A stretch of 64,000 nucleotides of DNA from an uncultured Oscillospiraceae bacterium (lineage in GTDB: Bacteria > Bacillota > Clostridia > Oscillospirales > Oscillospiraceae), in the NCBI GenBank assembly GCA_944387065.1, contig CALXDM010000008.1, positions 1-64,000 on the forward strand. Reading direction: 5' to 3'. The position numbers and the translations under genes were made by a program. The notes beneath the pieces were generated by a model, which worked only from the letters and a program-made list of their open reading frames with translations, did not search any database and was not told the DNA's origin. This document shows, piece after piece, positions 173 to 55,069 of the stretch. The number at the start of each line of letters is the position of its first letter. Positions within the stretch are counted from its first letter, which is position 1.

Positions 173-2389
173 TCACACCCGGTCCCGGCGCTCCAGCAGC
201 TCCAGCAGCAGCCGCTCGTTTTCCCGGGCGGCCTGGGCCAGCTGCTCGGACCGATCCCGCAGCCGGGCCAGGGTGCCGTCATAGTCAGCCATGAGCCGGT
301 CCACACAGTCCGCCGCGGCCGGGCCGTCAAAGTGTTCCACATGCCCCGCCGCAGGCATCCCAAGCTCCCGCAGGTAGCTGTCCACCTTGGGATCGTACAC
401 CAGGCCGACGCAGGGCACCGCCATGCGCGCGGCGAAGATCAGCGTGTGCAGGCGCATGGCCAGACACAGCTTGGACTGCCCCAGCACCGCCATGAGCTCC
501 TGGGGGACGCAGGGGGTGTCCAGCAGCCAGGAGGGCTCCTGCATAGCCTGGCGCACCGCCTGGGCAGCGGGCCGGTCCCGGTCAGGCTGCATCAGCAGGA
601 AGAGCACCTCCAGCCCATGGGCCCGGCGCAGGTGGTCGCACACCCCGGCCAGGGCCTGGGAAAACCCCTCCACCCCCGGCCAGGCCCGCACCGATACCAC
701 CGCGAAAGCCCGGTCCGCGGGCAGCCCGGCCTGGGCCACCAGCTCCCGGCCCCGCTGGGGCGGAGCAGGGACCAGGTTGAACACCGGGTCGGCGGTGACG
801 TACAAGTCCTCCCGCTTCACCCCCATGGCCCGCAACTCCTGCTGGGAGCTGCGATCCCGCAGGGTGACCAGGGCCGCCCGCTCCACCGCCCGCTTGACCC
901 GGCGGCGGTTGCCCGGCCTGCGCAGCGGGCCGATGCCGTTGGCGTAGAGCACCACCGGCCGGCCCAGCAGTCGGGCTGCGCCCATGACAGTCAGGTAGTA
1001 CATCAGGGAACGGGTGGAGGTCCTGTCCTGAAGCAGGCTGCCCCCCCCGGACAACAGCACATCGCAGCGGCGCAGGGCCTGGAACACCCGCCAGGCTCGG
1101 AACCGGGGCTCCGCCTGCACCTGGCACATCCGCTGGGTGAGACCAGGGGCGTTAGACAGCACTGTGATGTCCACCTGGTCGCTGGCCGCGGCGATGCCCT
1201 GGCAGATGGATTGCAGGATGGCGTCGTCCCCGGCGTTGGAGAAGCCGTAGTAGCCGCTCATCACCACCCGGTAACGGCGTTGGCGCACCTGCTCGTACAC
1301 CTCCAGGCAGTCCTGGGCCATCCGATGCACCGAGTACTGCTCCAAAACCACCTGGCGGCCGTATGAACCCAACTGCCCGCGCCGCTCCGGCTCTAACGCC
1401 AGAGCCGCGCGCACCTCGTCAAGCAGGCGCTGGGGGGTGGGCAGGGGAAAGCCCCGGCAGCAGAAGTTGCCCGCCTGGGCGGGGGCAAGCTGCTCCGGGG
1501 TGAACAGGCCCTGGCAGCCCTCGTTGCCCGCCAGGATCACCGGCTTGGCCGCCGCCATGGCCTCCAGCGCGGCCCGGGACACCCCCACGAACAGGTCCCC
1601 CGCGGCCACGATCCGGTTGATGTCCGCACGGGGCCCGGTCAGCACCACGCAGGGCCGCCCCAGCGTCCGGTTCACCTGGTCGGCCTTGGACTGGAGCTCC
1701 TCCAGCAGCTCGCCGCCCCCCACCAGCACCAGCTGGACGCCGGGGACGGCCCGCTCCAGCTCCGGAGCCAGCTCCACCAGCTGGCCGGCCACCAGGGCCC
1801 GGTCCCGATCCATCCGGCTGACATGGCAGAGCACCGGCCGGGCCGGATCCAGCCCCAGCTCGGTCAGCACCTCCTTCCGGGGCAGGTCGGGGGAGAACTT
1901 CTGGGTGTCGATGCCGTTGACGGTGACGCTGATGTGTCCCTCAGGCAAGTTGTACTCCTGGATCAGATATTCCTTGATGTCCTGGGACACGGCGATGGTG
2001 CGCTGGCCCCAATTGGTGAGGTAGCGCACCAGGCCCCGGTTCTCAAAGACCCAATGGGCCGTGGTGACAAAGGGGAAGCGCAGCTTCCGCCACAGGGTGG
2101 CGCACAGGAAGGCGGGGATGCGGGCATGGGCGTGAACCACGTCGGGCCGCTCCTGGCGCAGCACCTTTCGGAGCAGCGACCTGGCCCGGAGCATACACCG
2201 CAGGTCCCGGCGGTGCATGGGCACGCAGTAGTGGCGGATGCCCGCGGCCTCGATCTCGGGCACGTAGATCCCCCCGTTGGAGGCGATGGCCACGTCGTGC
2301 CCCTGGGCCCGGAGCTGCTTGGACAGCTCCACAATGTGGGTCTCCGCTCCGCCGATGTCCAGCCCCATGGTCGCCATCAGGATGCGCAT
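173..2389 (-). CDS. Fusion of family 4 glycosyltransferase and CsaB-like polysaccharide pyruvyl transferase
   Basis: 738-residue two-domain protein. Residues 1 to about 370 are a GT-B glycosyltransferase: the N-terminal MGLDIGGAETHIVELSKQL is the usual donor/acceptor loop, and an SRAALEAMAAAKPVI segment matches the GT4 nucleotide-sugar site. From about residue 374 the protein restarts with VVMSGYYGFSNAGDDAILQ, the signature of CsaB, which transfers pyruvate from PEP onto secondary cell-wall polysaccharide; LLSGGGSLLQDRTSTRS and RLHTLIFAA follow in the usual order. CsaB proteins are normally about 350-400 residues and free-standing. It is the last gene of an operon with a flippase and a polymer ligase, so it probably modifies a wall polymer at the inner membrane face. 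Domain calls are firm; the sugar acted on is unknown. Confidence 0.9.
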   Translation of the reverse strand: MRILMATMGLDIGGAETHIVELSKQLRAQGHDVAIASNGGIYVPEIEAAGIRHYCVPMHRRDLRCMLRARSLLRKVLRQERPDVVHAHARIPAFLCATLWRKLRFPFVTTAHWVFENRGLVRYLTNWGQRTIAVSQDIKEYLIQEYNLPEGHISVTVNGIDTQKFSPDLPRKEVLTELGLDPARPVLCHVSRMDRDRALVAGQLVELAPELERAVPGVQLVLVGGGELLEELQSKADQVNRTLGRPCVVLTGPRADINRIVAAGDLFVGVSRAALEAMAAAKPVILAGNEGCQGLFTPEQLAPAQAGNFCCRGFPLPTPQRLLDEVRAALALEPERRGQLGSYGRQVVLEQYSVHRMAQDCLEVYEQVRQRRYRVVMSGYYGFSNAGDDAILQSICQGIAAASDQVDITVLSNAPGLTQRMCQVQAEPRFRAWRVFQALRRCDVLLSGGGSLLQDRTSTRSLMYYLTVMGAARLLGRPVVLYANGIGPLRRPGNRRRVKRAVERAALVTLRDRSSQQELRAMGVKREDLYVTADPVFNLVPAPPQRGRELVAQAGLPADRAFAVVSVRAWPGVEGFSQALAGVCDHLRRAHGLEVLFLLMQPDRDRPAAQAVRQAMQEPSWLLDTPCVPQELMAVLGQSKLCLAMRLHTLIFAARMAVPCVGLVYDPKVDSYLRELGMPAAGHVEHFDGPAAADCVDRLMADYDGTLARLRDRSEQLAQAARENERLLLELLERRDRV

Positions 2390-2402
2390 GGCCCCACCCC
2401 GC

Positions 2403-2921
2403 TCACTGCCCCTGATCCCCTTGGGGGATCTGGATGTTCATCACCCGGCCCACAAAGCTGGCATACTTGGTGGTGAAGGTACGGTTGCTGTTCACCCCCA
2501 GGGCATACACCCGATTGAGCAGCACCGTCCCATCCGCCTCCACCAGGGCCTGGCCCTCAATGGTCAGCAGCAGGTCGTAGTAGCCCTGGGCGGGCACCAT
2601 GGCCACCGTGCCGTCGTCCAAGGAGGCCTGGTTGGTGCCGTCGCTGACCTGGATCTCGATGATCTCCCCCAGGGAGCCCCCGGTGCTCCGGGCCGGGTCA
2701 AACAGCTGATCCCCCTCCTGGATGGCCTCCAGCATCTCCTGGGGCTGGTTTTGCAGCCGCATCTGGTAGACCACCGGCACGGTGGCCACCGTGCTCCCCG
2801 TCTGGGGCATCTGGTTTTTCAGGTAGACGGCGGCCACCAGCACCCCGGCCACCACCAGCACGATCACGTCCAGGATGCTGATCTTGCCAAACAAACGGCC
2901 GTCCCGATCTATCAGCTTCAT
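2403..2921 (-). CDS. DUF4330 membrane-anchored protein (copy 2)
   Basis: 172 residues. The N-terminus MKLIDRDGRLFGKISILDVI followed by one hydrophobic segment (about residues 15-36) is typical of DUF4330. The rest is a beta-rich extracytoplasmic domain, so a single-pass protein facing outward. ATG start with GGAGGG upstream; its first four bases overlap the stop of the preceding gene. The family has no assigned biochemical role. It lies between two glycosyltransferase genes, which suggests a part in polymer assembly or export (inference). Confidence 0.8.
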   Translation of the reverse strand: MKLIDRDGRLFGKISILDVIVLVVAGVLVAAVYLKNQMPQTGSTVATVPVVYQMRLQNQPQEMLEAIQEGDQLFDPARSTGGSLGEIIEIQVSDGTNQASLDDGTVAMVPAQGYYDLLLTIEGQALVEADGTVLLNRVYALGVNSNRTFTTKYASFVGRVMNIQIPQGDQGQ

Positions 2922-3421
2922 GCCTGCCCCTCCCTTTCGATCTGCGTCACCCGGCCGCTGCCCATGTACCCTGGGCCCCGGGCGGTGATGGCCTGGCCCA
3001 CCCGGAAGTCATAGCCACCATCCAGCAGCAGCGCGTCCTCCTGCTGGGTGCAGGCGCTCTCCACCGTGATGTATACATCCTCATACCCCTCCAGCTGGGT
3101 CTGCACATAGCACCGGTTCTCCTGATCCAGCACCTGGGCCAGGGCCGGCTCAGCCCGGACGGACACCACGGTGCCCAGCCGATGGTTCTCCACCGTCTCC
3201 TCCAGCTGATCTCCCGGCTGGATCAGTTCGCTGTCCCCCTGGGCCATGCGCTGGATCAGGATGGTGTAGCGCACTGTGCCGGCGGCGCTCTCCTGCCCGC
3301 TTCCACCGTCGGATCGCAGCCCAAACCACACCAAGGCTCCCCCCACCACGAGCACCAGCACCAGGATGAGCCCGTCAAACAGGTTCAGCCGCAGGCGGAA
3401 TTTTGGATTACTCTGTTCCAT
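2918..3421 (-). CDS. DUF4330-like membrane-anchored protein (copy 1)
   Basis: 167 residues with the same build as its downstream neighbour: short cytoplasmic N-terminus (FRLRLNLFDGLILVLVLVV), one transmembrane segment, then a domain containing ERMAQ/EGDQL-like repeats shared with copy 2 (compare IQRMAQGDSELIQPGDQLEE with MLEAIQEGDQLFDPA). The two look like a divergent tandem duplication. Start ATG has AAGGAG upstream. The gene overlaps the glycosyltransferase before it by 14 bases, so translation is probably coupled. Function unknown. Confidence 0.75.
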   Translation of the reverse strand: MEQSNPKFRLRLNLFDGLILVLVLVVGGALVWFGLRSDGGSGQESAAGTVRYTILIQRMAQGDSELIQPGDQLEETVENHRLGTVVSVRAEPALAQVLDQENRCYVQTQLEGYEDVYITVESACTQQEDALLLDGGYDFRVGQAITARGPGYMGSGRVTQIEREGQA

Positions 3422-4538
3422 GGTTGTCTCCTTTCAGCACGTCCAGGTATACCTGCTCCACGTTCCGGGCAAAGCCCTGGCCGGTGAAGCGGGCCAAAAA
3501 TTGCTCCCGGGCCTGCCGGCCCAGCTGCGCCCGGGTGTCCGGCTGGTCCATCAGCCGGGCGATGGCGCCGGCCAGCGCCCCACTGTCCCGGCTGGGGAAA
3601 ATCAGCCCCGACATCCCGTCCTCTACAATCCACGGGTTGCCCCCGTAGCTGCTGGCAATCGTAGGCAGCCCCAGGCTCATCCCCTCCAGCAGGGCCAAGC
3701 TGGTGGCCTCGGTGCCATAGGAGGCGTTGAGCTGTACGTCCAGCAGGGACAACACCGGGGCCACATCGGACTGAAAGCCCAGGAAGAACACGGTGTCCTC
3801 CAGCCCCATCTGAGCCGCCTGGGCCCGCAGCCGTCCCTCCTCGCCGCCCGTGCCGGCCACCAGGATCTGAAGGCGCCGGCCTTCCTCCTTCAGCTGCCGG
3901 GCCGCCTCCAGGATGTGCTGGTGACCCTTATAGGGCTCCAGGCGGGCCAGGATGCCGGCGGTGAACACCCCTTCTGACAGCCCGTACTGCTCCCGCAGCG
4001 CCCGGCACGCTTCCGGGCCGCTGCGCGCCACCGGGGCCACCCCGTTGAGGATGACCCGGATGCGCCCTGCCGGCACCCCCGCGTCCACGAGGTTCTCCGC
4101 CGCGGCGGGGCTGACCGCGATGATCTGGTCGGCATAGCGCAGGTTCACCCACCGGTTGAGCCACCGCCCCGGGGGATAGCGCAGCTTGGCGCTCACGGGA
4201 AAGACCGAGTGGCGGGTGTACACCACCTTCTTCCCACACCGCCGGGCGGCGATGCGCCCGGACAGTGCGCCGTGGGTGTGCACCAGGTCGGGCCCCTCCC
4301 GACGGATCAGATCCACCAATGTCTGCACGTCCTGCCGGTGGTAGGACCGCTCAGCCATCCCCACCACCGGCAGCACCCGGGCCCCCGCCTGCTCCAGCGG
4401 AGTGGTCAGGGCGCTGCCCACCGGCACGGCCACCCAGGTCTCAAAGCGGTCCCGGTCGGCATAGCGCAGGTAGTTGAGGATCACCCGGCCCGCCCCGCCG
4501 ATGTTGCTGTCGCTGATGATGTTGAGCACCCGGATCAC
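3408..4538 (-). CDS. Family 4 glycosyltransferase
   Basis: 376 residues, GT-B fold. N-terminal SDSNIGGAGRVILNYLR is the glycine-rich loop; ARLEPYKGHQHILEAARQL (about residue 211) begins the nucleotide-sugar domain; YGTEATSLALLEGMSLGLP carries the E-x7-E pattern of retaining GT4 enzymes. The GTG start sits in a GTGA overlap with the ligase stop and has GGAGG seven bases upstream. It probably adds one sugar to a lipid-linked precursor on the cytoplasmic side. Donor and acceptor cannot be read from sequence. Confidence 0.9.
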   Translation of the reverse strand: MIRVLNIISDSNIGGAGRVILNYLRYADRDRFETWVAVPVGSALTTPLEQAGARVLPVVGMAERSYHRQDVQTLVDLIRREGPDLVHTHGALSGRIAARRCGKKVVYTRHSVFPVSAKLRYPPGRWLNRWVNLRYADQIIAVSPAAAENLVDAGVPAGRIRVILNGVAPVARSGPEACRALREQYGLSEGVFTAGILARLEPYKGHQHILEAARQLKEEGRRLQILVAGTGGEEGRLRAQAAQMGLEDTVFFLGFQSDVAPVLSLLDVQLNASYGTEATSLALLEGMSLGLPTIASSYGGNPWIVEDGMSGLIFPSRDSGALAGAIARLMDQPDTRAQLGRQAREQFLARFTGQGFARNVEQVYLDVLKGDNHGTE

Positions 4539-5986
4539 AGCCTCACCTCCCGCTCAGGCAGCTGGTCCCGCCGGGCCAGCAGCGCCCCCAGGGCCACAAA
4601 GACCCAGAACAGCAGCATGACCCGGTAGTTATAAAAGGAGTAGTCGGTCATGGCCTGGACCAGGAAGCCTGACATGCCGGCCAGCACCGCCGCCTGGTGC
4701 AGCCGGCTGAAGGCGTCCCGCGTGCGGCTGAAGGCGGCGCACAGGTCCCGGAAGAAGTGGAACAGCAGCAGTAGGAAGACCGCCAGGGCGGCCATGCCCG
4801 CGTCGCATACGATCTGCAGGAACAGGTTGTGGGAATGGGGGGCCACGATCTCATTATAGCTGTACCGGGGATAGACCAGGTTGAAGGCCGCCTCCCCAGG
4901 CCCCACGCCGCACAGCCAGTAGTCCCGGAGCATGTCCAACGTCCCCAGCCAGATGGACAGCCGGTAGGAGGTGGAGGTGTCCTCCAGATTGCCGATGCTG
5001 GTAAAGCGGGCGATCACCGTGTCGGGCATCAGGAAGTACAGGGCCACCAGCAGCACCGGCACCAACAGCAGCAGACGGGGCTGCAGCAGCAGCACGAACA
5101 CCAGCCCCGCGCACAGTAGCCCCAGCCAGGCCCCCCGGGACAGGGTGAGCAGCATGCAGAGGCACATCACCCCGCAGGCGAACAGGTAGGCCGCCCGTGG
5201 GCCCCACCCCTTTGCCGACAGCAGCCCCGCCCCCCCCAGGGGGATGATCAGGATCAGGTATTGGCCCAGCATATTGGGGTTGCCCAGGGTGGAGGGCACC
5301 CGGAAGCTGATGTCTTGGAACATCTCGGTGTCCACCCAGGCCTGGGACTGGTAGCCCCAGCCAAACAGGTACTGGCACACTCCATACAGCGCCACCACCG
5401 TCCCCGCCGCCACCAGCACCAGCACCAGGCCGTCCAGCTGCCTGCGGCTGTTCACGGCGTTTTCCAGCACGATGGCAAACAGGAGGAAGGCCACCGTCAG
5501 CAGCCCCACCGGCAGGCTGCCCGACGGGTTGACAGAAAACAGGGTGGCAACCAGGTAGACGGCGGCGTACAGCCAGATATACCGGTTGAACGAGGCATGG
5601 CGCAGCTCCAGATCCCGCCGCTGCACCAGCCGCAGCAGCAGGGACAGGGCGCTGACCAGTACCAGGGCCAGCACCGCCATGGTGGGCAGGATGGGGGCCA
5701 GGGCCGCCGCGGCCAGCGCCCACAGCCAGGTTTGCTGGAAGATGCTGCCCTCCAGCAGCCGGTTCAGGTGAAGGACCTCATAGATCCGGCACAGCAGCCG
5801 TCGCAGGGCCCGCCACAGCCAGGTGAACACGCTGTGCTCCGACTCCTCCCGCTCCCGTTGGGCGGGCGGGTGGAGGAACCACTGGGCCAGCCCGCTGCCG
5901 CGCCATTGCTCCCCGCACCATAGGGCCAGGGCCGCCAGAATCCGATACAGGACGCTGGCCTGTAAAATCCGCTGGATGCGCTGCAT
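4535..5986 (-). CDS. O-antigen ligase/polymerase family membrane protein
   Basis: 483 residues with about ten hydrophobic segments. The C-terminal half has Wzy_C/O-antigen-ligase features: TLSRGAWLGLLCAGLVFV, then GVGPGEAAFNLVYPRY and APHSHNLFLQIVCDAG, the HSHN-LQ motif before a late transmembrane helix. Such proteins polymerise or transfer lipid-linked glycans on the outer membrane face; in a Gram-positive this would be a wall or capsule polymer rather than O-antigen. AAGGAGG precedes the ATG. It follows murJ by only three bases. Confidence 0.85.
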   Translation of the reverse strand: MQRIQRILQASVLYRILAALALWCGEQWRGSGLAQWFLHPPAQREREESEHSVFTWLWRALRRLLCRIYEVLHLNRLLEGSIFQQTWLWALAAAALAPILPTMAVLALVLVSALSLLLRLVQRRDLELRHASFNRYIWLYAAVYLVATLFSVNPSGSLPVGLLTVAFLLFAIVLENAVNSRRQLDGLVLVLVAAGTVVALYGVCQYLFGWGYQSQAWVDTEMFQDISFRVPSTLGNPNMLGQYLILIIPLGGAGLLSAKGWGPRAAYLFACGVMCLCMLLTLSRGAWLGLLCAGLVFVLLLQPRLLLLVPVLLVALYFLMPDTVIARFTSIGNLEDTSTSYRLSIWLGTLDMLRDYWLCGVGPGEAAFNLVYPRYSYNEIVAPHSHNLFLQIVCDAGMAALAVFLLLLFHFFRDLCAAFSRTRDAFSRLHQAAVLAGMSGFLVQAMTDYSFYNYRVMLLFWVFVALGALLARRDQLPEREVRL

Positions 5987-5989
5987 CGC

Positions 5990-7558
5990 TCAATCCTCCT
6001 TCCCCGTGCGCCGGGCCAGCTTGCGCCAGACCAGCTTCATCTCATCCAGCCGGAGCAGCCCGGCCAGCAGAAAGTAGACCACCGCCCCCACTCCGGCGCA
6101 GGCAGCCAGCAGCAGTACCTCCCCCAGCTTGTCCGCCGGCAGCAGCCCGGCCAGTCCCTGCCGGGCCATCCAGACCACCCCAGCCATCCCTGCCGCACAT
6201 AATAGCATCTTGCCAAAGTCCAGGGCCAGGGCCCGGTTGACTACCCCATCCCCGCGGATTTGCAAGGGGATGAGCAGCAGCAGAGCGTAGAGGGTGGAGG
6301 ACACGGTGGAGGAGATGGCCAGCCCCGCCACCCCCAAAGGCTGGGTGAGGAACACGCACAGTACCAGGTTGGCCAGGATGGACACCCCTCCCGCCACCAG
6401 CGGGGCCCGTCCCTCCTGCCGGGCGAAGTAGGCCCGGCTGAGGATGTTTTGCAGCGCGTACCCCACCATTCCCAGGGACACCCACACCAGAGCCTGGGAG
6501 GTGATGTCCACCGAGAAGGCGTCAAAGGCCCCTCCGCCGTACAGGAAGGACACCAGGGGCCGGGCCAGCAGCATCAGCCCCGCCGCCATGGGCAGCACGA
6601 AGAACAGGCTGCTGCGCACCGTCTGGCGCAGGGTGTCCTGAAAGTCCTGCTGCCGGCGCTGGGCGGTCAGCCGGGAAAGTTTTGGGAAGATCACGTTGGT
6701 GATGGACAGGATGAACACCCCGGCGATGACCAGATACAGATTGGTGGCGTACTCCATGGCCGACACCCCCGCCCCCCCGTACAGGTGGGAGCCGAAGCGG
6801 CTGTTGATGGTCAGGTTGATGGGCTGCACCCAGGTAGACACCATCACCGGCCCCATCAGGGCGAAGGCCTGGCGGATCCCCTCTGAGCGCAAGGAGAAAT
6901 CGGGGTGGTAGCGAAAGCCGGTCCGGCGCAGGGAGGGCACCTGTACCAGCGCCTGGAGCAGCCAGCCCACCAGGTAGGCCACCGCCAGACCATACACCCC
7001 GTAGTCCTCGTCCAGCAGATAGAAGTAGCCGATGATGACCAGGTTGGACACCGCGCTGATCAGCGCCGGGACGTGGAAACGGTCCATGGCCTGGAGGATG
7101 CCCACAAAGGAGAAGGCCACCCCGGTGAGCAGCACGGTGGGGAACATCACCCGGGTGAGAGAGGCGGCCAGGGCGGCGGTCTGATCGTCGTACCCGTCGG
7201 CAAACAGGGCCACCAGCGGCTCGGCCAGCAGAATGCCCAGCAGGGTGAGGACGGCGGTGAGCAACCCCATCACCGACAGGAAGTTGCCCCCGAAGCGGAA
7301 GGCCGCCTGCCGCCCCTTTTGCGTCATGGTCTGGCTGAAGACCGGGATGAAGCAGGCCGCGATGGCCGAGGAGAACACCACGTCGAAAAAGACCCGGGGG
7401 ATCCGGCTGGCGGTATAGAAGGCCATGGCCTCCATGCCGGTGGTGCCGTAGTGGACGGCCATCAGCCGGTCCCGGAACAGCCCCAACGCCTTGCCCAGCA
7501 AGGTGATGAGCATCACGGCGCTGATGGTGCCGGTGGCGTGATCGCTTTTCCTGGCCAA
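5990..7558 (-). CDS. murJ: MurJ/MviN-family lipid-linked precursor flippase
   Basis: 522 residues counted from a TTG at 7558. That start has GGAGGG six to seven bases upstream and is followed by LARKSDHATGTISAVMLITL. A longer frame opens at 7666, but its first codons overlap the promoter -35 and -10, so it is not a credible start. About 14 hydrophobic segments and the MurJ-typical GLFRDRLMA, FFDVVFSSAIAACFIPVF and SSLFFVLPMAAGLMLLARP segments are present. It flips lipid II or a similar undecaprenyl-linked glycan. As first gene of a polymer operon it may serve that polymer rather than bulk peptidoglycan (inference). Confidence 0.9.
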   Translation of the reverse strand: MARKSDHATGTISAVMLITLLGKALGLFRDRLMAVHYGTTGMEAMAFYTASRIPRVFFDVVFSSAIAACFIPVFSQTMTQKGRQAAFRFGGNFLSVMGLLTAVLTLLGILLAEPLVALFADGYDDQTAALAASLTRVMFPTVLLTGVAFSFVGILQAMDRFHVPALISAVSNLVIIGYFYLLDEDYGVYGLAVAYLVGWLLQALVQVPSLRRTGFRYHPDFSLRSEGIRQAFALMGPVMVSTWVQPINLTINSRFGSHLYGGAGVSAMEYATNLYLVIAGVFILSITNVIFPKLSRLTAQRRQQDFQDTLRQTVRSSLFFVLPMAAGLMLLARPLVSFLYGGGAFDAFSVDITSQALVWVSLGMVGYALQNILSRAYFARQEGRAPLVAGGVSILANLVLCVFLTQPLGVAGLAISSTVSSTLYALLLLIPLQIRGDGVVNRALALDFGKMLLCAAGMAGVVWMARQGLAGLLPADKLGEVLLLAACAGVGAVVYFLLAGLLRLDEMKLVWRKLARRTGKED

Positions 7559-7637
7559 GCCGTTCCCTCCTCTCCCACCCCCGAAACGGGGCCCTTCCGG
7601 GCTTTCGCAGCCCGGCCACATCAGTTCAATGGACAGT

Positions 7638-7666
7638 ATTGTACACCAACCCCTGCCCTTTTTCAA
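7638..7666 (-). promoter_or_regulatory. SigA-type promoter for the murJ operon
   Basis: Minus-strand TTGAAA, 17-base spacer, TACAAT. The transcript would have a leader of about 70 bases containing a small CCGGGCT/AGCCCGG hairpin (7597-7615) before the TTG start. Confidence 0.65.
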
Positions 7667-7752
7667 CCATCCTCCGGGAGATTCATGGCTTGTTCACACT
7701 TTTGCCGGCCCTTGGCTGTCCTGCCCAGCCGGCCCCGGCGGGCAGGGACGCA

Positions 7753-7781
7753 TTGAACTGCGGTCGATTTTATGCTATCAT
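7753..7781 (+). promoter_or_regulatory. SigA-type promoter for the SLH phosphodiester glycosidase gene
   Basis: TTGAAC, 17-base spacer, TATCAT, about 85 bases upstream of the chosen ATG and divergent from the murJ promoter. Confidence 0.55.
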
Positions 7782-7866
7782 TATCCTATCTGCCCGAATT
7801 TTGGCTCTTCCAGAGCCCCAACGCCCCGGATGGGGCGATTCCACGGATGATGAAAAGGAGCGTGCC

Positions 7867-10659
7867 ATGAACCGCAACACCTTCCCCCGCCTGGCCCGGC
7901 GCCTGACCGCTCTGGTCCTGGCCGCGGCGCTGCTGATCCCCACCGCCTTTGCCACCGCCGGCGACCCCCAGCTCTCCACCACCCAGGCCCTCACCGACCA
8001 ACTGACCTACCGCAACACGATCTCCGAACACCCCTCTGCCGGCCGGGTGGAGAGCTTCTCCCTGGAGCTGGAGCCGGGGGGCTCGGTCTACCCCATCGCG
8101 GTCCAGGCCAGCGGCAGCATCTACGGCTCGGGCACCATCACCCAGGCCATCCAGGCAGCCGAGGCCATGGGATACCATGTGGTGGGGGGGATCAACGGCG
8201 ACTTCTATACCCCCGGCACCGGCATCCCCAACGGCTTGGTCATTGAGCATGGCGTCTACCGCTCCAGTTCCGGGGGCTACCCTGTACTGGCAATGGTGGA
8301 CGGCCAGCTCCAGCTGTCCCAGGCCCCCCAGGTGGCCCTGACCCTCACCAACAGCCGCACCGGCCGGGTGGACGCCCCGGACCACTTCAACAAGTGGCGC
8401 AACTATGACGGGGGGCTGTACCTGTTCAACGGCGACTTCGACGCCTCCACCCATACCGAGGGCTCCGGCGGCTGGATCGTCGTGCTGGAGCTGACCCCGG
8501 ACAGCCAAGGGGCCGCCCTCACCGTCAACTCCACCTTGACCTTGGAGGTGGTGTCCGTCACGGACACGGCCGAATCGGTGGCCATCGGCCCCAACCAGTA
8601 CATCCTCACTGCCGACCACTACTCCTCCAGCGTGGAGTTCTTTGACGGCTATCAGCCCGGCGACCAGGTCACCCTGACCACCACCTGCGCCGACCCCAAC
8701 CTGGCCCAGGCCCAATGGGCCATGGGCTGCGGCGACATCATCGTATCCGGCGGCTCGGTTACCGACAGCTCCAACTGGGTCTATCCCACCGGCCGGGCTC
8801 CCCGCACCAGCGTGGGGGTCAAGGCGGACGGTACCATGGTGCTCTACGCCGTGGACGGGCGGCAAAGCGGCTACTCCGGCGGGCTGACCGAGCTGGATCT
8901 GGCCCAGGAGATGCAGCGCCAGGGCTGCGTGTGGGCCGTCAACCTGGACGGGGGCGGCTCCACCACCTTTGCCGTCCAGCTGCCCGGCCAGAGCAGTCCC
9001 ACCGTGGCCAACTCCCCCTCGGACGGGGGGCTGCGGGCCTGCGCATCGTTCCTCTTGCTGGTGACCGATCCCTCTGCCGCCGACGGGGTTGCCCGGCAGC
9101 TGGCCCTCCAGGAGGACGGGCTGGTGGTGCTGGCCGGCTCCAGCGTCACCCTGGGCAACGTGGTCAGCGTGGACGGGGGCCTGGAACCCGTCCACAGCCG
9201 GGTATCCGACGCCGTGCTTACCTCAGCGGGAGGGCTGGGCAGCTTTGACGGCGGGGTGTACACCGCCGGCTCCACCCCAGGGACGGACACCATCTCCATC
9301 ACCTCCGAATCCCTGGGCCTGTCGGGCACCGCCCAGATCCACGTGGTCAGTTCCCTCAGCCAGCTGAGCGTCACCCAGGCGGGCAGCGGCGCCCCTGTGT
9401 CCTCCCTGCAGGTGGCGGCAGGCCAGAGCGTGGCGCTGAGTGCCACAGGCACCTACTGGTCCCGCTCCGCCCTGCGCGCCGGCTCCGGCGGGGTGAGCTG
9501 GTCGGTGAGCGACGGGGCAGGCTCCATCACCCAGAACGGAGTGTTTACCGCCTCGGCCGTCGCGCAGCCCGGCGTCATCACCGTCTCGGCCGGCGGGCTC
9601 ACCCGCACCATCCCCGTCAACCAGACCCAGCACGCCCACACCGACGTCACCCCGGACCACTGGTCCTACACCGCCGTGGTGTTCTGCTACCAGCAGGGCA
9701 TCGTCAACGGCATCAGCGACACTCTGTTCGGCCGGGACGACCCAATCCGGCGGCGGGACTTTGTGGTCATGCTCCACAATGCCCTGGGCCAGCCCCAGGC
9801 CACCGGCTCCTCCGGCTTTGCCGACGTGGAGGCCGGGTCCTACTATGAGGGCCCGGTCACCTGGGCCAGTCGCGCGGGGCTGGTGCTGGGTGTCTCCGAC
9901 ACCCTCTTTGTCCCGGATGATCCCATCACCCGGGAACAGGCCGCTGTCATCCTGCACCGGGCCCTGCCCCTGCTGGGGCTGGACGCCCCAGAGCCCGAGC
10001 TGTCCGTCCTGGAGCAGTTTGCCGACCAGGCCCAGATCTCCGGCTATGCCAGGCAGTCGTTGGCCGTGCTGGTCTCCCTGGGCATCCTCAACGGCACCGG
10101 CGAGGGGATCAACCCCCAGGGGATCCTGACCCGGGCGGAGATGGCCGCGCTGCTCTACCGCCTGCTGGGGGAGCAGAGCAACACCCCCGACGCCCCCCAG
10201 CTTGGCCCTGACGCCACCCTGACCCTCTCCCCCACCTCAGGGACGCTGGAGTCCTCCCAGTCCCTCACCCTCACCGCCACCCTCACCGGCGGCACAGGGG
10301 AGATCACCTGGACCTCCAGCAACCCGGACGTGGCGGTGGTCTCCGGCCAGGGCGTGGTCACCAACGTGTACCTGGGGACGGGTTCCCCGTCGGTGACCAT
10401 CACCGCCCACTGCGGGCCGCTGAGCGCCAGCGCGGTGTTCCAATGCGCCCCCGCCCAGCAGGTTGGCCTGGTCACCGCCAGCCCCAGCCTGAACGTCCGT
10501 TCCGGCCCGGGCACGGGCTATTCGCTGGTGGGCAGCCTGGCCACCGGGGCCCAGGTGGCCGTGCTGGCCGAGCAGAACGGCTGGTACCAGGCGCTGTTCC
10601 CCAGCGGTTCGGCTGCCGTCACCGGCTGGGTGTCGGCCAGCTATGTCACCCTGTCCTGA
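7867..10659 (+). CDS. SLH-anchored phosphodiester glycosidase family protein
   Basis: 930 residues from the ATG at 7867, which has AAAAGGAG upstream; an in-frame ATG at 7639 lies before the promoter and is discarded. Signal peptide about residues 1-30 (hydrophobic core, then ATAGDPQ). Residues about 100-400 form the NAGPA/phosphodiester glycosidase domain: GGINGDFYTPGTGIPNGLV, RTSVGVKADGTMVLYAVDG and VNLDGGGSTTFAV. Residues 400-590 look like Ig-like/linker domains. Three SLH repeats follow (about 591-775, with FADVEAGSYY and ITREQAAVILHRAL), then an Ig-like Big_2 domain and a C-terminal bacterial SH3 domain (SLNVRSGPGTGYSLVG). The family cleaves N-acetylglucosamine-phosphodiesters. SLH and SH3 domains would hold it on the wall polymer. 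Confidence 0.92.
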   Translation: MNRNTFPRLARRLTALVLAAALLIPTAFATAGDPQLSTTQALTDQLTYRNTISEHPSAGRVESFSLELEPGGSVYPIAVQASGSIYGSGTITQAIQAAEAMGYHVVGGINGDFYTPGTGIPNGLVIEHGVYRSSSGGYPVLAMVDGQLQLSQAPQVALTLTNSRTGRVDAPDHFNKWRNYDGGLYLFNGDFDASTHTEGSGGWIVVLELTPDSQGAALTVNSTLTLEVVSVTDTAESVAIGPNQYILTADHYSSSVEFFDGYQPGDQVTLTTTCADPNLAQAQWAMGCGDIIVSGGSVTDSSNWVYPTGRAPRTSVGVKADGTMVLYAVDGRQSGYSGGLTELDLAQEMQRQGCVWAVNLDGGGSTTFAVQLPGQSSPTVANSPSDGGLRACASFLLLVTDPSAADGVARQLALQEDGLVVLAGSSVTLGNVVSVDGGLEPVHSRVSDAVLTSAGGLGSFDGGVYTAGSTPGTDTISITSESLGLSGTAQIHVVSSLSQLSVTQAGSGAPVSSLQVAAGQSVALSATGTYWSRSALRAGSGGVSWSVSDGAGSITQNGVFTASAVAQPGVITVSAGGLTRTIPVNQTQHAHTDVTPDHWSYTAVVFCYQQGIVNGISDTLFGRDDPIRRRDFVVMLHNALGQPQATGSSGFADVEAGSYYEGPVTWASRAGLVLGVSDTLFVPDDPITREQAAVILHRALPLLGLDAPEPELSVLEQFADQAQISGYARQSLAVLVSLGILNGTGEGINPQGILTRAEMAALLYRLLGEQSNTPDAPQLGPDATLTLSPTSGTLESSQSLTLTATLTGGTGEITWTSSNPDVAVVSGQGVVTNVYLGTGSPSVTITAHCGPLSASAVFQCAPAQQVGLVTASPSLNVRSGPGTGYSLVGSLATGAQVAVLAEQNGWYQALFPSGSAAVTGWVSASYVTLS

Positions 10660-10688
10660 CGCACCCCCGGCGAAAGTCACTTGGATCC

Positions 10689-10724
10689 GCGGCGGTAGCC
10701 CCGAGTCTCTGGGGCTGCCGCCGC
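10689..10724 (+). terminator. Stem-loop after the glycosidase gene
   Basis: A 14-bp stem with one wobble (GCGGCGGTAGCCCC with GGGGCTGCCGCCGC) and an 8-base loop. There is no T run, so it may be a weak or Rho-type end. The rest of 10660-10864 holds only a poor promoter candidate (TTGACG, 15-base spacer, TATATC with extended TGT) near 10760-10786. Confidence 0.45.
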
Positions 10725-10864
10725 AGCCTGTCTCCCGCCCCAGCCCTGGGCGAAAATGGTTGACGGGCCACCATTTCTGTTATATCCTGAACAGGCAACC
10801 AACGGAGTTGTCCGCACGGCCCGCCCCGGCCGGTCTGCGGAGCGCGAGCGAAGGGGGAGCGAAC

Positions 10865-11803
10865 ATGCGAGAACAGGAACTGATCCAGCGCATCCTGGCC
10901 GAGGTGCGCAAGGCGGTGCTGGGCAAGGACACGGTGCTGGCCCAGGTACTGCTGGCCATCCTGGCCCGGGGCCACGTCCTGCTGGAGGACATCCCCGGCG
11001 TGGGCAAGACCACCATGGCTCTGGCCTTCTCCCGGGCGCTGGGCCTGCGCTACCAGCGGGTGCAGTTCACCCCCGACGTCATGCCCTCCGACCTGACCGG
11101 CTTTTCCATCTTCAACCGGGAGACAAACGCCTTTGACTACCGTCCCGGCGCGCTGATGTGCAACCTCTTCCTGGCCGACGAGCTCAACCGGGCCACCAGC
11201 CGCACCCAGTCGGCCCTGCTGGAGGCCATGGAGGAGGGGCAGGTGACGGTGGACGGGGTGTCCCGCCCCATCGGCCAGCCCTTCGTGGTGATCGCCACCC
11301 AGAACCCGGTGGGGGCGGCGGGCACCCAGCCCCTGCCCGACTCCCAGCTGGACCGCTTCGCCCTGCGCCTATCCCTGGGCTATCCCTCCCACCGGTCGGA
11401 GGCGGCCATGGTACGGCAGCGCCAGACGGGAAACCCCTTGGACCGGGTGGAGCAGGTGGCCGACCACGCCCAGCTGGAGCAGCTGCGCCAGGCCGCCGAC
11501 CAGATCTATGTGTCCGACGACGTGCTGGACTACCTGCTGGCCCTAGTGGCCGCCACCCGGCAGCACCCCCTCATCCTCCAGGGGGCCAGCCCCCGGGCCA
11601 CCCTGGCCCTGACCTGCGTCAGCCGGGCGTTGGCCCTGGCCTCTGGCCGAGACTACATACTGCCTGAGGACGTGCAGGCCGTCTTCCCCCACGTCATCGC
11701 CCACCGGCTGGTGCTCTCCCCCAAGGCGGAGGACAGCCCGTCCGCCCGGGATGAGCTGCTGGCCGCCCTGATGCGAGGGGTGCGGCCCCCCCGGCTTCGG
11801 TGA
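10865..11803 (+). CDS. MoxR-family AAA+ ATPase
   Basis: 312 residues from ATG 10865 (AGGGGGAGC upstream). Walker A EDIPGVGKTTMALAFS, Walker B NLFLADELNRATSRTQSALL, sensor VVIATQNPVGAAGTQPLPDSQ and the C-terminal lid PRATLALTCVSRALAL are all typical of MoxR. Members act as chaperone-like ATPases, commonly encoded with a DUF58 partner and a transglutaminase protein as here. The downstream gene starts inside its stop codon (GTGA overlap), so the three genes are one operon. Confidence 0.95.
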   Translation: MREQELIQRILAEVRKAVLGKDTVLAQVLLAILARGHVLLEDIPGVGKTTMALAFSRALGLRYQRVQFTPDVMPSDLTGFSIFNRETNAFDYRPGALMCNLFLADELNRATSRTQSALLEAMEEGQVTVDGVSRPIGQPFVVIATQNPVGAAGTQPLPDSQLDRFALRLSLGYPSHRSEAAMVRQRQTGNPLDRVEQVADHAQLEQLRQAADQIYVSDDVLDYLLALVAATRQHPLILQGASPRATLALTCVSRALALASGRDYILPEDVQAVFPHVIAHRLVLSPKAEDSPSARDELLAALMRGVRPPRLR

Positions 11804-12789
11804 ACATGGCCAGCCGTCGCATCGTCTACGGGTTGGCCCTGCTGGCCGCCCTCGCCTTTCAGATCTTCTATGACGGGTATCTGGCCCAGTTCCTGCTGGT
11901 CTGTCTGCTGGCCCTGCCCGCCCTCTCTTTGCTGCTCAGCCTGCCCGGCCTGGCGGGGCTACGCCTGGCCCTGTCCCCCTCCAGCCCCCAGCTCGCCCAG
12001 GGCCAAGAGGGGCAATGGCGGCTGACCGCCCGCAGCTCCCTTCCCCTGCCCGTCGCCCGGCTGACCCTGCGCCTGACCTTCCACAACGCCCTGACGGGCG
12101 CCACGGCGGCCCAGCGGCTGCAACTTGCCGGCCTGGCCAGTGGCCAGACCCGCCCCCTTCCCCTGGAAGGGGACCATTGCGGCGCGCTCACCTGCCGGGT
12201 CAGCCGGGCCAGGGCTCTGGACTTCCTGGGCCTATTCTCCCTGCCTATCCACCGGCCAGACCCCGCCCAAGCCCTGGTGCTGCCCCAGCCCGTCCCCCTG
12301 GAGGAGCTGCCCGGGCTGGAGCCCCTTCTGGCCCAGACCGGGATGGGGCCGGGCTCCGCTCCGGACGAGGAGGACGAGGAGCTGCGGGACTATCGACCCG
12401 GCGACCCCATCCGCGCCATTCATTGGAAGCTCTCCTCCAAATACGACGCGCTGGTGGTGCGGGAGCGGGCCCTGTGCGGCCGGCCCCAGGTAGCCCTGTC
12501 CTTCGATCTGTTCGGCCCACCGGCGCGGCTGGACCGGGTGCTGGCCCGGCTGTGGACCGCCTCCCGCTTCCTGGCGGGGCGGGGACTGGCCCATGAGATC
12601 TGCTGGACCGCCCCGGACGGGCAGCCCCGGCGGGAGGTTGTGGACGGCCAGGGCCAGTTGCTGTCCTGCATGGCCCGCATCCTCTCCCAGCCCGCCCCGG
12701 CGGCCCGGCCCCAGCCCTCCGCCCCGCTGCCCCACAGCCCCGGGCTATCCCGCCTGCACATCACCGCCGGAGAGGAGGATGCGCCATGA
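11800..12789 (+). CDS. DUF58 domain protein
   Basis: 329 residues. The GTG start overlaps the moxR stop; an ATG at 11806 is an alternative. Two N-terminal membrane segments (about residues 8-48), a beta-rich middle, then the DUF58 signature DEELRDYRPGDPIRAIHWKL followed by ALVVRE near residue 205-225. DUF58 proteins have a von Willebrand A-like fold and pair with MoxR ATPases. The exact role here is unknown; envelope assembly is the usual guess from context. Confidence 0.92.
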   Translation: MNMASRRIVYGLALLAALAFQIFYDGYLAQFLLVCLLALPALSLLLSLPGLAGLRLALSPSSPQLAQGQEGQWRLTARSSLPLPVARLTLRLTFHNALTGATAAQRLQLAGLASGQTRPLPLEGDHCGALTCRVSRARALDFLGLFSLPIHRPDPAQALVLPQPVPLEELPGLEPLLAQTGMGPGSAPDEEDEELRDYRPGDPIRAIHWKLSSKYDALVVRERALCGRPQVALSFDLFGPPARLDRVLARLWTASRFLAGRGLAHEICWTAPDGQPRREVVDGQGQLLSCMARILSQPAPAARPQPSAPLPHSPGLSRLHITAGEEDAP

Positions 12790-15029
12790 CCCAGCCCTTT
12801 TCTCCCCGCCGGCAGAGCCGCTGGGGCCTGGCTGTGCTGGCCGACGCTTTGCTGGTGACGGTGCTGCTGGCCGCTCTGGCCCGGTTCTGCCTGACCACCT
12901 ATCTGCAGCCCTTCTACTACGATCTCCTGGCCGTCTCCTTTGCCCCCACGGGCGGGCTGCTGCCCATCCCCCTGCTGCCCGCCCTGGGTGTATGTGTGGG
13001 GGCCGGATTGACGGCCACGGCGGTATGGTCGCTGCCCCGGTTTCGCTGGCTGGCGGCGGGGGTGCTGCTGGCAGCGGCAGGAGGGCTGCTCTACTACCAT
13101 CGGCTCCTGCTGTCCTGGGGTGCCCTGGCCCTGTGGGAAACCCTGTCCATCCTGTTCACCGACGCCACCGGCTTCCCCGGCTACTTCGTCTGGGACGCCC
13201 TGCTCTCCCCTACCCTACGGCAGCAGGCCATCCAGTCCCTGCTGGCCGCGGCGACGGCGCTGTATGCCCTGGCCCTGGCCTGGGCGGTGGTCCGGCTGCG
13301 CCGCTTTTGGCCCGTCTTTGCCCTCACCCTGCCCTGGCTGATCCCCGCCTTTCTGGCCGAGGTGGAGCTGGACTGGCCCGCCCTGATGGCGGTGTGTGCC
13401 TGCTGGGCCGCCCTGCTGCTGGCCAGCCTGTCCGCCCGGGCCGGACGGGAGGCCGGGGCCCGGGTGACCCTGCTGGCTCTGCCCGCCAGCCTAACCCTGA
13501 TCCTGGGAGTGTCTCTGGCCTTCCCCCGTCAGGACTATGTCCAGCCCACCTGGGCCACGGCAGCCCGGGATGAGTTGCTGGCCCTGGACTGGTTCGCTTC
13601 AGGCAGCCCCCTGGAGGGCGGCTTCTCTGACACTCCAAACGGTGGGACAGAAGCCCTGGCAGAACCCGAGGTGGACCTGTCCGCCGCCGGACCGCGGCGG
13701 TACACCGGCCGGGCGGTACTCCAGGTGGAGGCCACCCACGCCGGTCCCATGTACCTGCGGGGCCTGGTCTACTCCGACTACACCGGGTCGGCCTGGACGG
13801 GATTGCAGATCCACACCCTGTCCGGTCAGGCGGCCCAGGCCCTTGACGGAGCGGCCCAAGGCCTGTCCGCCGCCCGCATTCAGTCCCTGTCCGGCTCCAG
13901 CACCCTGGCCTACCTCCCCTATCGAACGGTGCAGGTCCAGGACGTCTCCACCGCCCCCGCCGCCGCCCTGGCCCTGCCAGAAGCCGTAGCGGCGTACAGC
14001 GTGTCCTACCTTCCCCTGAAAGGGGAGCCCATCCCGGAAGGGGAACTGGACAGCGCCGTCCTGGAGGGCGGCCTTTCCCGCTACCTGGAGGTTCCCCAGC
14101 AGGCTTCCGCCTTCCTGCACGCCTGGTATCAGCAGGCCCAGTGGGAGCTGGCGGACAGCGGCGTACAGCCCGCCGGTGGGGCCACAGGCCCCTACGCCTG
14201 GCAGCTCGACACCGCCGCCCAGATCGCCCAGCTGCTGGCCCGGAACGCCCAGTACGACCTGGGCGCCCCCGCCGTCCCAGAAGGGGAAGACTTCGTATCC
14301 CACTTCCTGGGGGAGAGCGGCCGGGGCTACTGCGTCCACTTCGCCAGCGCCGCCGCCCTGTTGCTGCGCCTGGAGGGGATCCCCGCCCGGTACGTCAGCG
14401 GCTACGCGGTGAATATCCCCGGCTCCGGCCAGGCCCAGGTGCTGGACTCCAACGCCCACGCCTGGGTGGAGATCTATCTGGAGGGCTACGGGTGGTACCC
14501 GGTGGAGGTCACCCCCTCCGTCCCCAGCCAGGAGGATCCGGAGCCCCAGCCCTCTGCCACACCCACCCCCACTCCCGCTCCATCCACCACTCCCTCCCGC
14601 GACCCGGAGTCAACCCTGGAGCCCGACGCAACTCTCCCCCCTCAGCAGACTCCCGGCGAGCAGGCGGAAACAGAAGCCGGCACCCCGATCTGGCTGGCCT
14701 GGGCCATCCCCCTGCTGGCTGTGCTGGCCGCCCCCTGGGTACTGTGGGGGCTGCGGCGGCTGGGCTGGCGGCGGCTGGAGCGCCGCCCGGACGCCAACGC
14801 CGCCGTGCTGGCCGCCTGGGTCTGGTTCCAACAGCTGGAGCGGTGGGGCGGTCAAGCCGGCCCCATGGCCCGGGAGCTGGCCGGCAAGGCCCGGTTCAGC
14901 CAGCACATTCTCACCCCGGAGGAACGGGGCCAGATGCTGGCCGAGCTGGGCCAGGAGATCCTTCGGGTTCGGCAGGGCCTACCCATGTGGAAGCGGCTGC
15001 CCTTTGCCCTGCTCTTCCCCCTGCCTTGA
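12786..15029 (+). CDS. Membrane transglutaminase-like (TgpA/DUF3488 type) protein
   Basis: 747 residues, ATGA overlap with the preceding gene. About six membrane helices in residues 15-245, then an extracytoplasmic region with a transglutaminase core at about 515-575: GRGYCVHFASAAALLLR (Cys nucleophile), SNAHAWVEIY (His) and GWYPVEVTPS, where the third catalytic position reads Glu rather than the classical Asp. A Pro/Thr-rich linker follows (about 580-620), then a further membrane helix near 635-655 and a cytoplasmic tail of DUF4129 character. Together with MoxR and DUF58 this is a common three-gene envelope operon. Confidence 0.92.
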   Translation: MTQPFSPRRQSRWGLAVLADALLVTVLLAALARFCLTTYLQPFYYDLLAVSFAPTGGLLPIPLLPALGVCVGAGLTATAVWSLPRFRWLAAGVLLAAAGGLLYYHRLLLSWGALALWETLSILFTDATGFPGYFVWDALLSPTLRQQAIQSLLAAATALYALALAWAVVRLRRFWPVFALTLPWLIPAFLAEVELDWPALMAVCACWAALLLASLSARAGREAGARVTLLALPASLTLILGVSLAFPRQDYVQPTWATAARDELLALDWFASGSPLEGGFSDTPNGGTEALAEPEVDLSAAGPRRYTGRAVLQVEATHAGPMYLRGLVYSDYTGSAWTGLQIHTLSGQAAQALDGAAQGLSAARIQSLSGSSTLAYLPYRTVQVQDVSTAPAAALALPEAVAAYSVSYLPLKGEPIPEGELDSAVLEGGLSRYLEVPQQASAFLHAWYQQAQWELADSGVQPAGGATGPYAWQLDTAAQIAQLLARNAQYDLGAPAVPEGEDFVSHFLGESGRGYCVHFASAAALLLRLEGIPARYVSGYAVNIPGSGQAQVLDSNAHAWVEIYLEGYGWYPVEVTPSVPSQEDPEPQPSATPTPTPAPSTTPSRDPESTLEPDATLPPQQTPGEQAETEAGTPIWLAWAIPLLAVLAAPWVLWGLRRLGWRRLERRPDANAAVLAAWVWFQQLERWGGQAGPMARELAGKARFSQHILTPEERGQMLAELGQEILRVRQGLPMWKRLPFALLFPLP

Positions 15030-44374: not shown

Positions 44375-44402
44375 TTGTATTTCCCCGCCGAGTTGGTAGA
44401 AT
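44375..44402 (+). promoter_or_regulatory. SigA-type promoter for the SLH 5'-nucleotidase
   Basis: TTGTAT, 16-base spacer, TAGAAT. A second CTTGTATTT lies about 34 bases upstream (near 44341), a possible direct repeat for a regulator. Confidence 0.5.
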
Positions 44403-44460
44403 GGAGAGGACGGCGGCGCGAGGTGCGCCGACCTATCCAAGAGAAAGGTGGTTTTCCTCT

Positions 44461-46683
44461 GTGAAGAAACGATTCCGCTCCCTGCTGCTGGCCCTGGCCG
44501 TGGCCGCCAGCCTGGCTGCGACGGCCTCCGCTGCCGGCGGGCCGACCGTGGCCGGCCCGGACGACATCGTGATCCTGTACACCAACGACGTGCACACCTA
44601 TATTGACAGGGGCCAGGAGGAAGGCGGGCAGGGCGCGCTGACCTACTCCAAGGTGGCCGGCTACAAGAGCACCCTGGACAACGTCCTGCTGGTGGACGCG
44701 GGCGACGCCATCCAGGGCACCGCCTACGGCTCCATGGACAACGGGGCCACCATCATTGAGCTGATGAACGCCGCAGGCTATGACGTGGCCACCCTGGGCA
44801 ATCATGAGTTCGACTTCGGTATGGAGCGCATCCTCCAGATCATGCAGCGGGAGGCCGACTTCCCCTATGTGTCCTGCAACCTCTACCACCTGGACAGCGG
44901 CACGCCGGGGGCCAACGTGCTGGACAGCTACCAGGTGCTGGAGGTCAACGGGGTGCGGGTGGCCCTGCTGGGCATCACCACCCCCGAGTCCATCACCAAG
45001 TCCACCCCCGCCTACTTCCAGGATGAGAACGGCAACTACATCTACGGCATTGCCGGCGGTGAGGACGGAACGGAGCTGTATCAGGCAGTACAGCAGGCCA
45101 TCGACCAAGCCGCCCAGGAGGCTGACTATGTCATCGCCCTGGGCCACCTGGGGGTGGATCCCTCTTCCTCTCCCTGGGCCTCGGAGGAGCTGATCGCCAA
45201 CACCACCGGGCTGGACGCCTTCATCGACGGGCACTCCCACACCTCTGTGGAGATGGAGCTGGTGGAGGACCAGGAGGGCAACCCCGTAGTCCTCACCCAG
45301 ACCGGCTCCTATCTGGACGCGCTGGGCCAGATGACCATCTCCGCCGACGGCACCATCACCACTCAGCTGCTCACCGGCCAGGACCTGGCCGATGTCACCC
45401 CTGACGCCGGCGTGCTGGCCATTGAGCAGGGGTGGATTGACTCGGTCAACGACGAACTGGGCCAGGTCATCGGCTACACCGACGACGTGCTGGACAACTA
45501 TGACGATCAGGGCAACCGCCTGGTGCGCCGTCAGGAGACCAACACCGGTGACTTTGCCGCCGACGCGCTGTACTACCTCTTTGACAACATGGGCCTGGAC
45601 GTGGATGTTGCCGTGATGAATGGCGGCGGTATCCGCAACGAGGCGGTCACAGGGGAGCTGAGCTATCTGACGTGCAGGCAGATCCACACCTTCGGCAACG
45701 TGGCCTGCCTGCAAACCGTTACCGGCCAGCAGATCCTGGACGCCCTGGAGTGGGGCGCCAAGGACGTCAGCGACGAGCTGCCCGTGGAGAACGGCGGCTT
45801 CCTCCAGGTGTCCGGCCTGCGCTATACCATCAACACCGCCATCCCCTCCACCGTGCAGCAGGATGACCATGGGGTGTGGACCGGCGGGCCCACCGGCGCA
45901 TACCGGGTCAGCGATGTGCAGGTGCTCAACAACGAGACCGGGGCCTATGAGCCCCTGGATCTGACCGCCAGCTATAACCTGGCCGGCTACAACTACACCC
46001 TGCGCAACCTGGGCGACGGCTTTGCCATGTTTGATGGGGCGGTAAACGTGCTGGACTATGTCATGGAGGACTACATGGTGCTGGCCAACTACATCCAGTC
46101 CTTCCCCGCCAACGCAGACGGGCTGCATGAGGTGACGGGCTACGGCCAGGTAGACAACCGCATCACCATCGTCCACCAGGCCCCCTCCACCCTGTACGAT
46201 GACGTGGCCAGCACCGACTGGTACTTCCCCGCTGTGGAGTACGTCACCCAGCAGGGCTACATGGTGGGCATTGGCGAGAACCTGTTTGACCCCAGCGGGA
46301 CCACCACCCGGGGCGCGCTGATGACCATGCTGGCCCGCTTTGACGGCAACCAGCTGGAGGCCACCGACCCCTGGTATCAGGCCGGCATGGAGTGGGCCGT
46401 GGCCGAGGGCGTATCCGACGGTACCATGCCCACCGAGACCGTCACCCGGGTGCAGGCGGTGACCATGATGTGGCGTCTGGCGGGCCGGCCGGAGGCCCAA
46501 GCCGACCTGTCCGCCTACATCGACCGGGACCAAGTGCCCAGCTGGGGGCTAGAGGCCATTGAATGGGCCGTGTCCAACGGCATCATGCAGGGCAGCGACA
46601 GCCAGCTCAATCCCAACGGCACGTCCACCCGCGCCCAGATTGCCCAGCTGATGATGCAGTTTTCCAAGACCGTCACGGGCTAA
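44461..46683 (+). CDS. SLH-anchored 5'-nucleotidase / UDP-sugar hydrolase family protein
   Basis: 740 residues from the GTG at 44461. Signal peptide about 1-25 (cleavage after ASA). Calcineurin-like metallophosphatase domain: IVILYTNDVHTYI, LLVDAGDAIQG, ATLGNHEFDFG and IDGHSHTSVEM give the metal ligands. The 5'-nucleotidase C-terminal domain has NTGDFAADALYYLF and VAVMNGGGIRNE. From about 577 there are three SLH repeats (DVASTDWYFPAVEYVTQQGY; TTTRGALMTMLARF; WGLEAIEWAVSNGIMQG). It would hydrolyse nucleotides outside the cell while bound to the wall polymer, feeding nucleosides to salvage. Confidence 0.95.
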   Translation: MKKRFRSLLLALAVAASLAATASAAGGPTVAGPDDIVILYTNDVHTYIDRGQEEGGQGALTYSKVAGYKSTLDNVLLVDAGDAIQGTAYGSMDNGATIIELMNAAGYDVATLGNHEFDFGMERILQIMQREADFPYVSCNLYHLDSGTPGANVLDSYQVLEVNGVRVALLGITTPESITKSTPAYFQDENGNYIYGIAGGEDGTELYQAVQQAIDQAAQEADYVIALGHLGVDPSSSPWASEELIANTTGLDAFIDGHSHTSVEMELVEDQEGNPVVLTQTGSYLDALGQMTISADGTITTQLLTGQDLADVTPDAGVLAIEQGWIDSVNDELGQVIGYTDDVLDNYDDQGNRLVRRQETNTGDFAADALYYLFDNMGLDVDVAVMNGGGIRNEAVTGELSYLTCRQIHTFGNVACLQTVTGQQILDALEWGAKDVSDELPVENGGFLQVSGLRYTINTAIPSTVQQDDHGVWTGGPTGAYRVSDVQVLNNETGAYEPLDLTASYNLAGYNYTLRNLGDGFAMFDGAVNVLDYVMEDYMVLANYIQSFPANADGLHEVTGYGQVDNRITIVHQAPSTLYDDVASTDWYFPAVEYVTQQGYMVGIGENLFDPSGTTTRGALMTMLARFDGNQLEATDPWYQAGMEWAVAEGVSDGTMPTETVTRVQAVTMMWRLAGRPEAQADLSAYIDRDQVPSWGLEAIEWAVSNGIMQGSDSQLNPNGTSTRAQIAQLMMQFSKTVTG

Positions 46684-53343: not shown

Positions 53344-53347
53344 GATT

Positions 53348-55000: not shown

Positions 55001-55069
55001 GCGCCCGTCCCCTGTTTTTGCCCCTTGGCGGAAAATCACGCAAAAAGCCCTTGCAGAGCAGGTGAAAGT

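Follow-up and report, generated by a model that had tools for sequence, protein, structure and literature searches.

The window, a stretch of 64,000 nucleotides from an uncultured Oscillospiraceae bacterium, joins two modules in one operon, an arrangement shared with some members of its family and with genome G076. One is a csaB pyruvyltransferase gene whose product very probably makes the ligand of the genome's SLH proteins, and the other is a murJ-Wzy_C-glycosyltransferase-DUF4330 set. SLH domains bind pyruvylated secondary wall polysaccharide made by CsaB, and in this respect the genome is a new instance of established biology; the less ordinary part is the separable Wzy_C-DUF4330-MurJ module and its joining to csaB. 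The explanation that we favor as probable for the locus as a whole is that CsaB would make the SLH ligand together with MnaA, TagO and TagA, and that the MurJ-Wzy_C-DUF4330 module would flip and assemble the polymer. The chemistry of the pyruvyl tag is already known, but the membrane gene set is hardly described and widely conserved, and it probably exports and assembles the tagged polymer. Flipping, polymerization and attachment of pyruvylated wall polymers constitute a gap in the account of SLH anchoring; toward filling it the locus contributes specific candidate genes, a gene order that is conserved and strains that have lost the genes naturally. The genetics and assembly of these polymers are only beginning to be known (review PMC6801904).

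The operon comprises six genes on the minus strand (173-7558), separated by junctions of +3, -4, -14, -4 and +13 bases, which is typical operon spacing. The first gene, murJ (5990..7558), encodes a MviN-type MOP flippase (PF03023, 299 bits; TIGR01695, 348 bits); its more likely start codon is the TTG at 7558, which a good ribosome-binding site precedes, and the mechanical open reading frame extends to 7666. It is followed by a Wzy_C family membrane protein of the O-antigen polymerase/ligase/oligosaccharyltransferase superfamily (4535..5986; PF04932, 84 bits) and by a stand-alone GT4 glycosyltransferase (3408..4538; PF00534, 118 bits; PF13439, 99 bits) with a GTG start that overlaps the preceding gene by 4 bases. 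Two DUF4330 genes come next, here called a (2918..3421; PF14221, 53 bits) and b (2403..2921; PF14221, 99 bits), whose products are paralogues with ~22% identity. The last member (173..2389) encodes a 738-residue fusion of a GT4 domain (approximately residues 1-370; PF13439) with a CsaB pyruvyltransferase (approximately 374-738; PF04230, 135 bits; TIGR03609, 289 bits). Contig C8 ends where the window begins, 172 bases beyond the csaB stop codon, and the genes that follow csaB in one relative (locus L036) encode a zinc ABC transporter, which suggests that csaB is probably the final gene of the operon. Divergent from the operon lies a gene for a secreted NAGPA phosphodiester glycosidase (7867..10659, plus strand, start at 7867; PF09992, 97 bits) that also carries Big_2, SH3_3 and three SLH repeats (PF00395, 91 bits over three stretches), and its SLH region matches the solved Sap SLH structures 6bt4 and 3pyw. 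The two transcription units are separated by a putative two-way promoter region that is conserved in seven loci, with a promoter-like site for the operon (TTGAAA-17-TACAAT, 7638..7666, minus strand) and another with an extended -10 element for the glycosidase (TTGAAC-17-TATCAT, 7753..7781, plus strand). Of nine loci obtained from related Oscillospiraceae, six carry all of these genes, including that for the glycosidase, in an unchanged order, and three are truncated by contig ends. Judged by such relatives, the organism stands near Candidatus Enterenecus (Oscillospiraceae). The original prediction had described this operon, the divergent SLH-anchored glycosidase and another SLH enzyme near 44.5 kb; all were found, the operon genes with significant profile matches and the SLH enzyme as a 5'-nucleotidase/metallophosphatase type protein at 44401..46683 (plus strand; PF02872, PF00149, PF00395), with the amendment that a single fused gene accounts for both the CsaB-like domain and the predicted second glycosyltransferase. 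Downstream of the glycosidase, at 10643-15029, are genes for a MoxR-type AAA ATPase, a putative DUF58-type protein and a putative transglutaminase-like protein, the third having no NCBIfam match.

The CsaB half of the fusion scores 289 bits against the CsaB equivalog model TIGR03609, compared with a cut-off of 213, and contains the motif SGYYGF and the motif RLH followed by K at +20. This is the spacing of the Paenibacillus alvei acceptor residues Y14 and F16 and of the PEP residues R306, H308 and K328, with numbering taken from PMC10435577 and from a cloning primer in PMC6030368. The equivalents of R148 and R207 were missed by ungapped offsets, and LRD and VRA motifs lie nearby. A search of solved structures by sequence with the CsaB domain returned no match. 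The original prediction had named a second csaB locus in the genome as evidence that would count against it; a PF04230 search of the whole genome found none, the fusion being the sole pyruvyltransferase-family gene. The same genome has 40 SLH repeat matches on ~17 open frames. Fusion to GT4 is common in the order, such that 71 of the 78 CsaB matches above ~160 bits lie in open frames of at least 700 residues, and this fits the listing of clostridial 'pyruvyltransferases' under GT4 by CAZy (PMC6801904).

Co-inheritance was assessed across 147 Oscillospirales genomes, with the caveat that metagenome-assembled genomes are incomplete, and a genome was counted as SLH-positive when it has six or more SLH repeats. 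CsaB and SLH agree in 137 of the 147 (71 with both, 66 with neither, 7 + 3 discordant), and CsaB and TagA agree in 129 (75 with both, 54 with neither, 3 + 15 discordant). Because genome counts are not independent, significance was judged by shuffling labels within families in 20,000 trials, a procedure in which genus-level relatedness partly remains. In these trials no shuffle matched the overlap seen for the pairs CsaB/SLH, CsaB/TagA and TagA/SLH, and the CsaB/DUF4330 and CsaB/MurJ overlaps were each reached once. The predicted co-occurrence of CsaB with SLH proteins in relatives is accordingly strong and holds within families. The three SLH-rich genomes that lack CsaB (G018, G067 and G127) have TagA and have congeners that carry CsaB, so assembly gaps likely explain its absence. 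Seven genomes have CsaB but fall below the threshold of six SLH matches, and five of them belong to a single family, f18 (G051, G064, G109, G129 and G137), where CsaB occurs with 0-2 SLH repeats and its link to SLH is weakest; G051 has CsaB and no SLH match at all. Joint absence is also seen: three genomes that are each at least 99% complete, two from the window's genus and one from its family (G011, G105 and G094), lack CsaB, TagA, SLH, DUF4330, Wzy_C and a strong MurJ together. The single PF04230 gene, the ~17 SLH frames and the co-occurrence of CsaB, SLH and TagA are the basis for our view that CsaB in this operon very probably makes the SLH ligand.

In P. alvei, TagA makes the CsaB acceptor, and CsaB acts on TagA's lipid-linked disaccharide (PMC6030368). 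The window's genome encodes TagA on contig C4, beside a gene whose start resembles thymidylate kinase, and adjacent TagO and MnaA genes on contig C5, 1.5 kb from an LCP gene; a second LCP gene is on contig C17, and a second PF00953 protein, presumably MraY, is on contig C3. The full MnaA-TagO-TagA-CsaB set is therefore found in a single genome with SLH proteins and two LCPs, but the operon, which the original prediction had proposed to build the SLH ligand, does not do so alone, since the MnaA, TagO and TagA steps are encoded elsewhere. The locus resembles the csaB-tagA-tagO locus of P. alvei (PMC6030368, PMC6801904) in that all four enzymes are present, csaB lies near an SLH gene and the catalytic motifs are the same; it differs in that the genes for TagA, TagO and MnaA lie elsewhere, CsaB has a fused GT4 domain, and murJ, Wzy_C and two DUF4330 genes share the csaB operon. 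With the Bacillus anthracis model (CsaB, a Wzy-like protein and Wzx; review PMC6801904) it has in common a Wzy-like protein clustered with CsaB, a proposed flippase and a pathway spread over several clusters, whereas the flippase here is of the MviN/MurJ type, the DUF4330 pair and the GT4 fusion come in addition, and O-acetylation genes were not seen in this operon. From these genes we infer a series of biochemical steps, the sugar composition that they imply, and the sharing of CsaB's polymer by the MurJ-Wzy_C-DUF4330 module. MnaA, TagO and TagA would make a lipid-linked disaccharide, to whose ManNAc the CsaB half would add a pyruvate ketal, and this lipid-linked unit would probably be lengthened by the two GT4 activities, one in the fusion and one stand-alone. 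Flipping of the unit would then fall to the MurJ homologue, and outside the membrane it would be polymerized or transferred by Wzy_C acting with the pair of DUF4330 proteins anchored there. Finally, the LCP enzymes encoded on C5 and C17 would attach the polymer to peptidoglycan, where the ~17 SLH proteins, the divergent glycosidase included, would bind it.

What, then, is the substrate of the MurJ homologue? The protein matches the TIGR01695 equivalog model over its whole length, well above the cut-off (348 versus 235.55 bits). The genome has no other strong MurJ, and the alternative lipid II flippase Amj was not found in it. One hypothesis is that the protein serves the cell as its regular lipid II flippase and happens to be encoded next to wall-polymer genes, but the argument that the only strong MurJ must have this housekeeping role loses force given that most of the order lacks such a MurJ and given a comparison of residues, and we consider the hypothesis improbable. 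MurJ-model matches above 100 bits occur in 34 of the 147 genomes and only 27 pass the TIGR01695 cut-off, which shows that the order lives without such a MurJ, and two SpoVB/YtgP-like proteins, which could flip lipid II, are also present in this genome. (The window has a gene for a SpoVB-like polysaccharide flippase followed by MazG at 53291-55864.) In Escherichia coli MurJ, the charged cavity residues R18, R24, R52, R270 and D39 are important or essential (PMC4790310); the window's protein has K, R, F, N and M at positions 18, 24, 52, 270 and 39, such that only R24 is kept, and R270 is missing in every module-linked homologue aligned. This residue test is not decisive, since the Gram-positive YtgP likewise retains few of the E. 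coli residues (PMC4790310). The missing residues, the patchy distribution and the SpoVB-like alternatives nevertheless support a non-lipid II substrate, and a dedicated, non-housekeeping role for the operon MurJ is plausible.

The Wzy_C protein is the only PF04932 protein in the genome, and only the shared Wzy_C domain could be recognized in it; features that separate a ligase (WaaL), a polymerase (Wzy) or a protein glycosyltransferase were not found, and a search of solved structures by sequence with the domain gave no match. Its nearest named NCBIfam model is IctB (TIGR00947), at 179 bits or about half of the cut-off of 366. IctB is a cyanobacterial protein of disputed function that belongs to a group of Wzy/WaaL proteins (PMC4594306), and Synechococcus elongatus, which alone among 14 control genomes has DUF4330, also has SLH and PF04230 proteins. 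The Wzy_C superfamily also includes O-oligosaccharyltransferases, e.g., WsfB of P. alvei. An enzyme of that kind, glycosylating SLH or S-layer proteins instead of building a wall polymer, would be in keeping with additional weak matches to O-glycosylation ligase models, yet the best named match is to IctB, and the module is also found where SLH proteins are few or absent. We consider this possibility improbable. Hydropathy gives each DUF4330 protein one N-terminal transmembrane helix, followed in protein a by an extracytoplasmic beta domain, and the AlphaFold model of protein b (pLDDT 82) combines one transmembrane helix with a beta-rich outer domain. A Foldseek search with this model had no match at E 0.001; an EF-Tu/EF1A-type beta-barrel was the best VIA-align candidate (Z 6.2), which is a common arrangement from which the fold is not assignable. 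DUF4330 had no match in PHROGs and no mention in the literature searched, and its partnership with Wzy_C appears to be undescribed. The locus gives a first functional lead for DUF4330.

The module could act on CsaB's polymer or on another. In most relatives the two gene groups lie apart: in ~20 of the loci compared, (murJ)-Wzy_C-(GT4)-DUF4330-DUF4330 lies between trmD and ptsH-uvrC-rsmD-coaD, Monoglobus pectinilyticus, from another order, keeps all five genes in order with no csaB nearby, and only six of the sampled genomes have csaB and MurJ no more than 12 kb apart. The window is read as two joined modules on these grounds. Within the module the linkage is tight, with Wzy_C within 4 kb of DUF4330 in 58 of the 72 DUF4330 genomes against a chance expectation that we estimate at ~1% of genomes (for a density of 1-2 Wzy_C genes per 2 Mb). 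The housekeeping setting, trmD upstream and ptsH-uvrC-rsmD-coaD downstream, is seen with or without murJ and GT4 in most of loci L075-L089, L115-L121, L125, L126 and L131, from several families. An alternative hypothesis is that the product of the module is some other glycan of the wall or surface and that csaB, still making the SLH ligand via TagO and TagA, joined its operon in this lineage. Along with the separate siting in most families and in Monoglobus, this would account for the six genomes that have DUF4330 but neither CsaB nor TagA, which count in part against the original assignment of the murJ-Wzy_C-GT4-DUF4330 genes to a ligand operon; 16 CsaB genomes also lack DUF4330 above its cut-off. 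On the other hand, CsaB co-occurs with DUF4330 and with MurJ (31 of the 34 genomes with MurJ-like matches) beyond within-family expectation, the genome has a single Wzy_C, and losses within the genus take out all components together, and for these reasons we regard a separate glycan as unlikely, though less so than the alternatives for MurJ and Wzy_C. We tentatively hypothesize that murJ-Wzy_C-GT4-DUF4330-DUF4330 may be a conserved clostridial machine for exporting and assembling a wall polysaccharide, with a MurJ homologue shifted from lipid II to another lipid-linked sugar and paired DUF4330 proteins as obligate Wzy_C partners, a proposal that could well prove wrong. If true, it would give DUF4330 its first function, possibly also in cyanobacteria with unexplained IctB-type Wzy proteins. 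A layout resembling that of the window occurs in a genome of another family (G050, L093:7497-15315), where csaB, here not fused, follows DUF5693 and murJ and is divergent from a NAGPA protein without detected SLH repeats.
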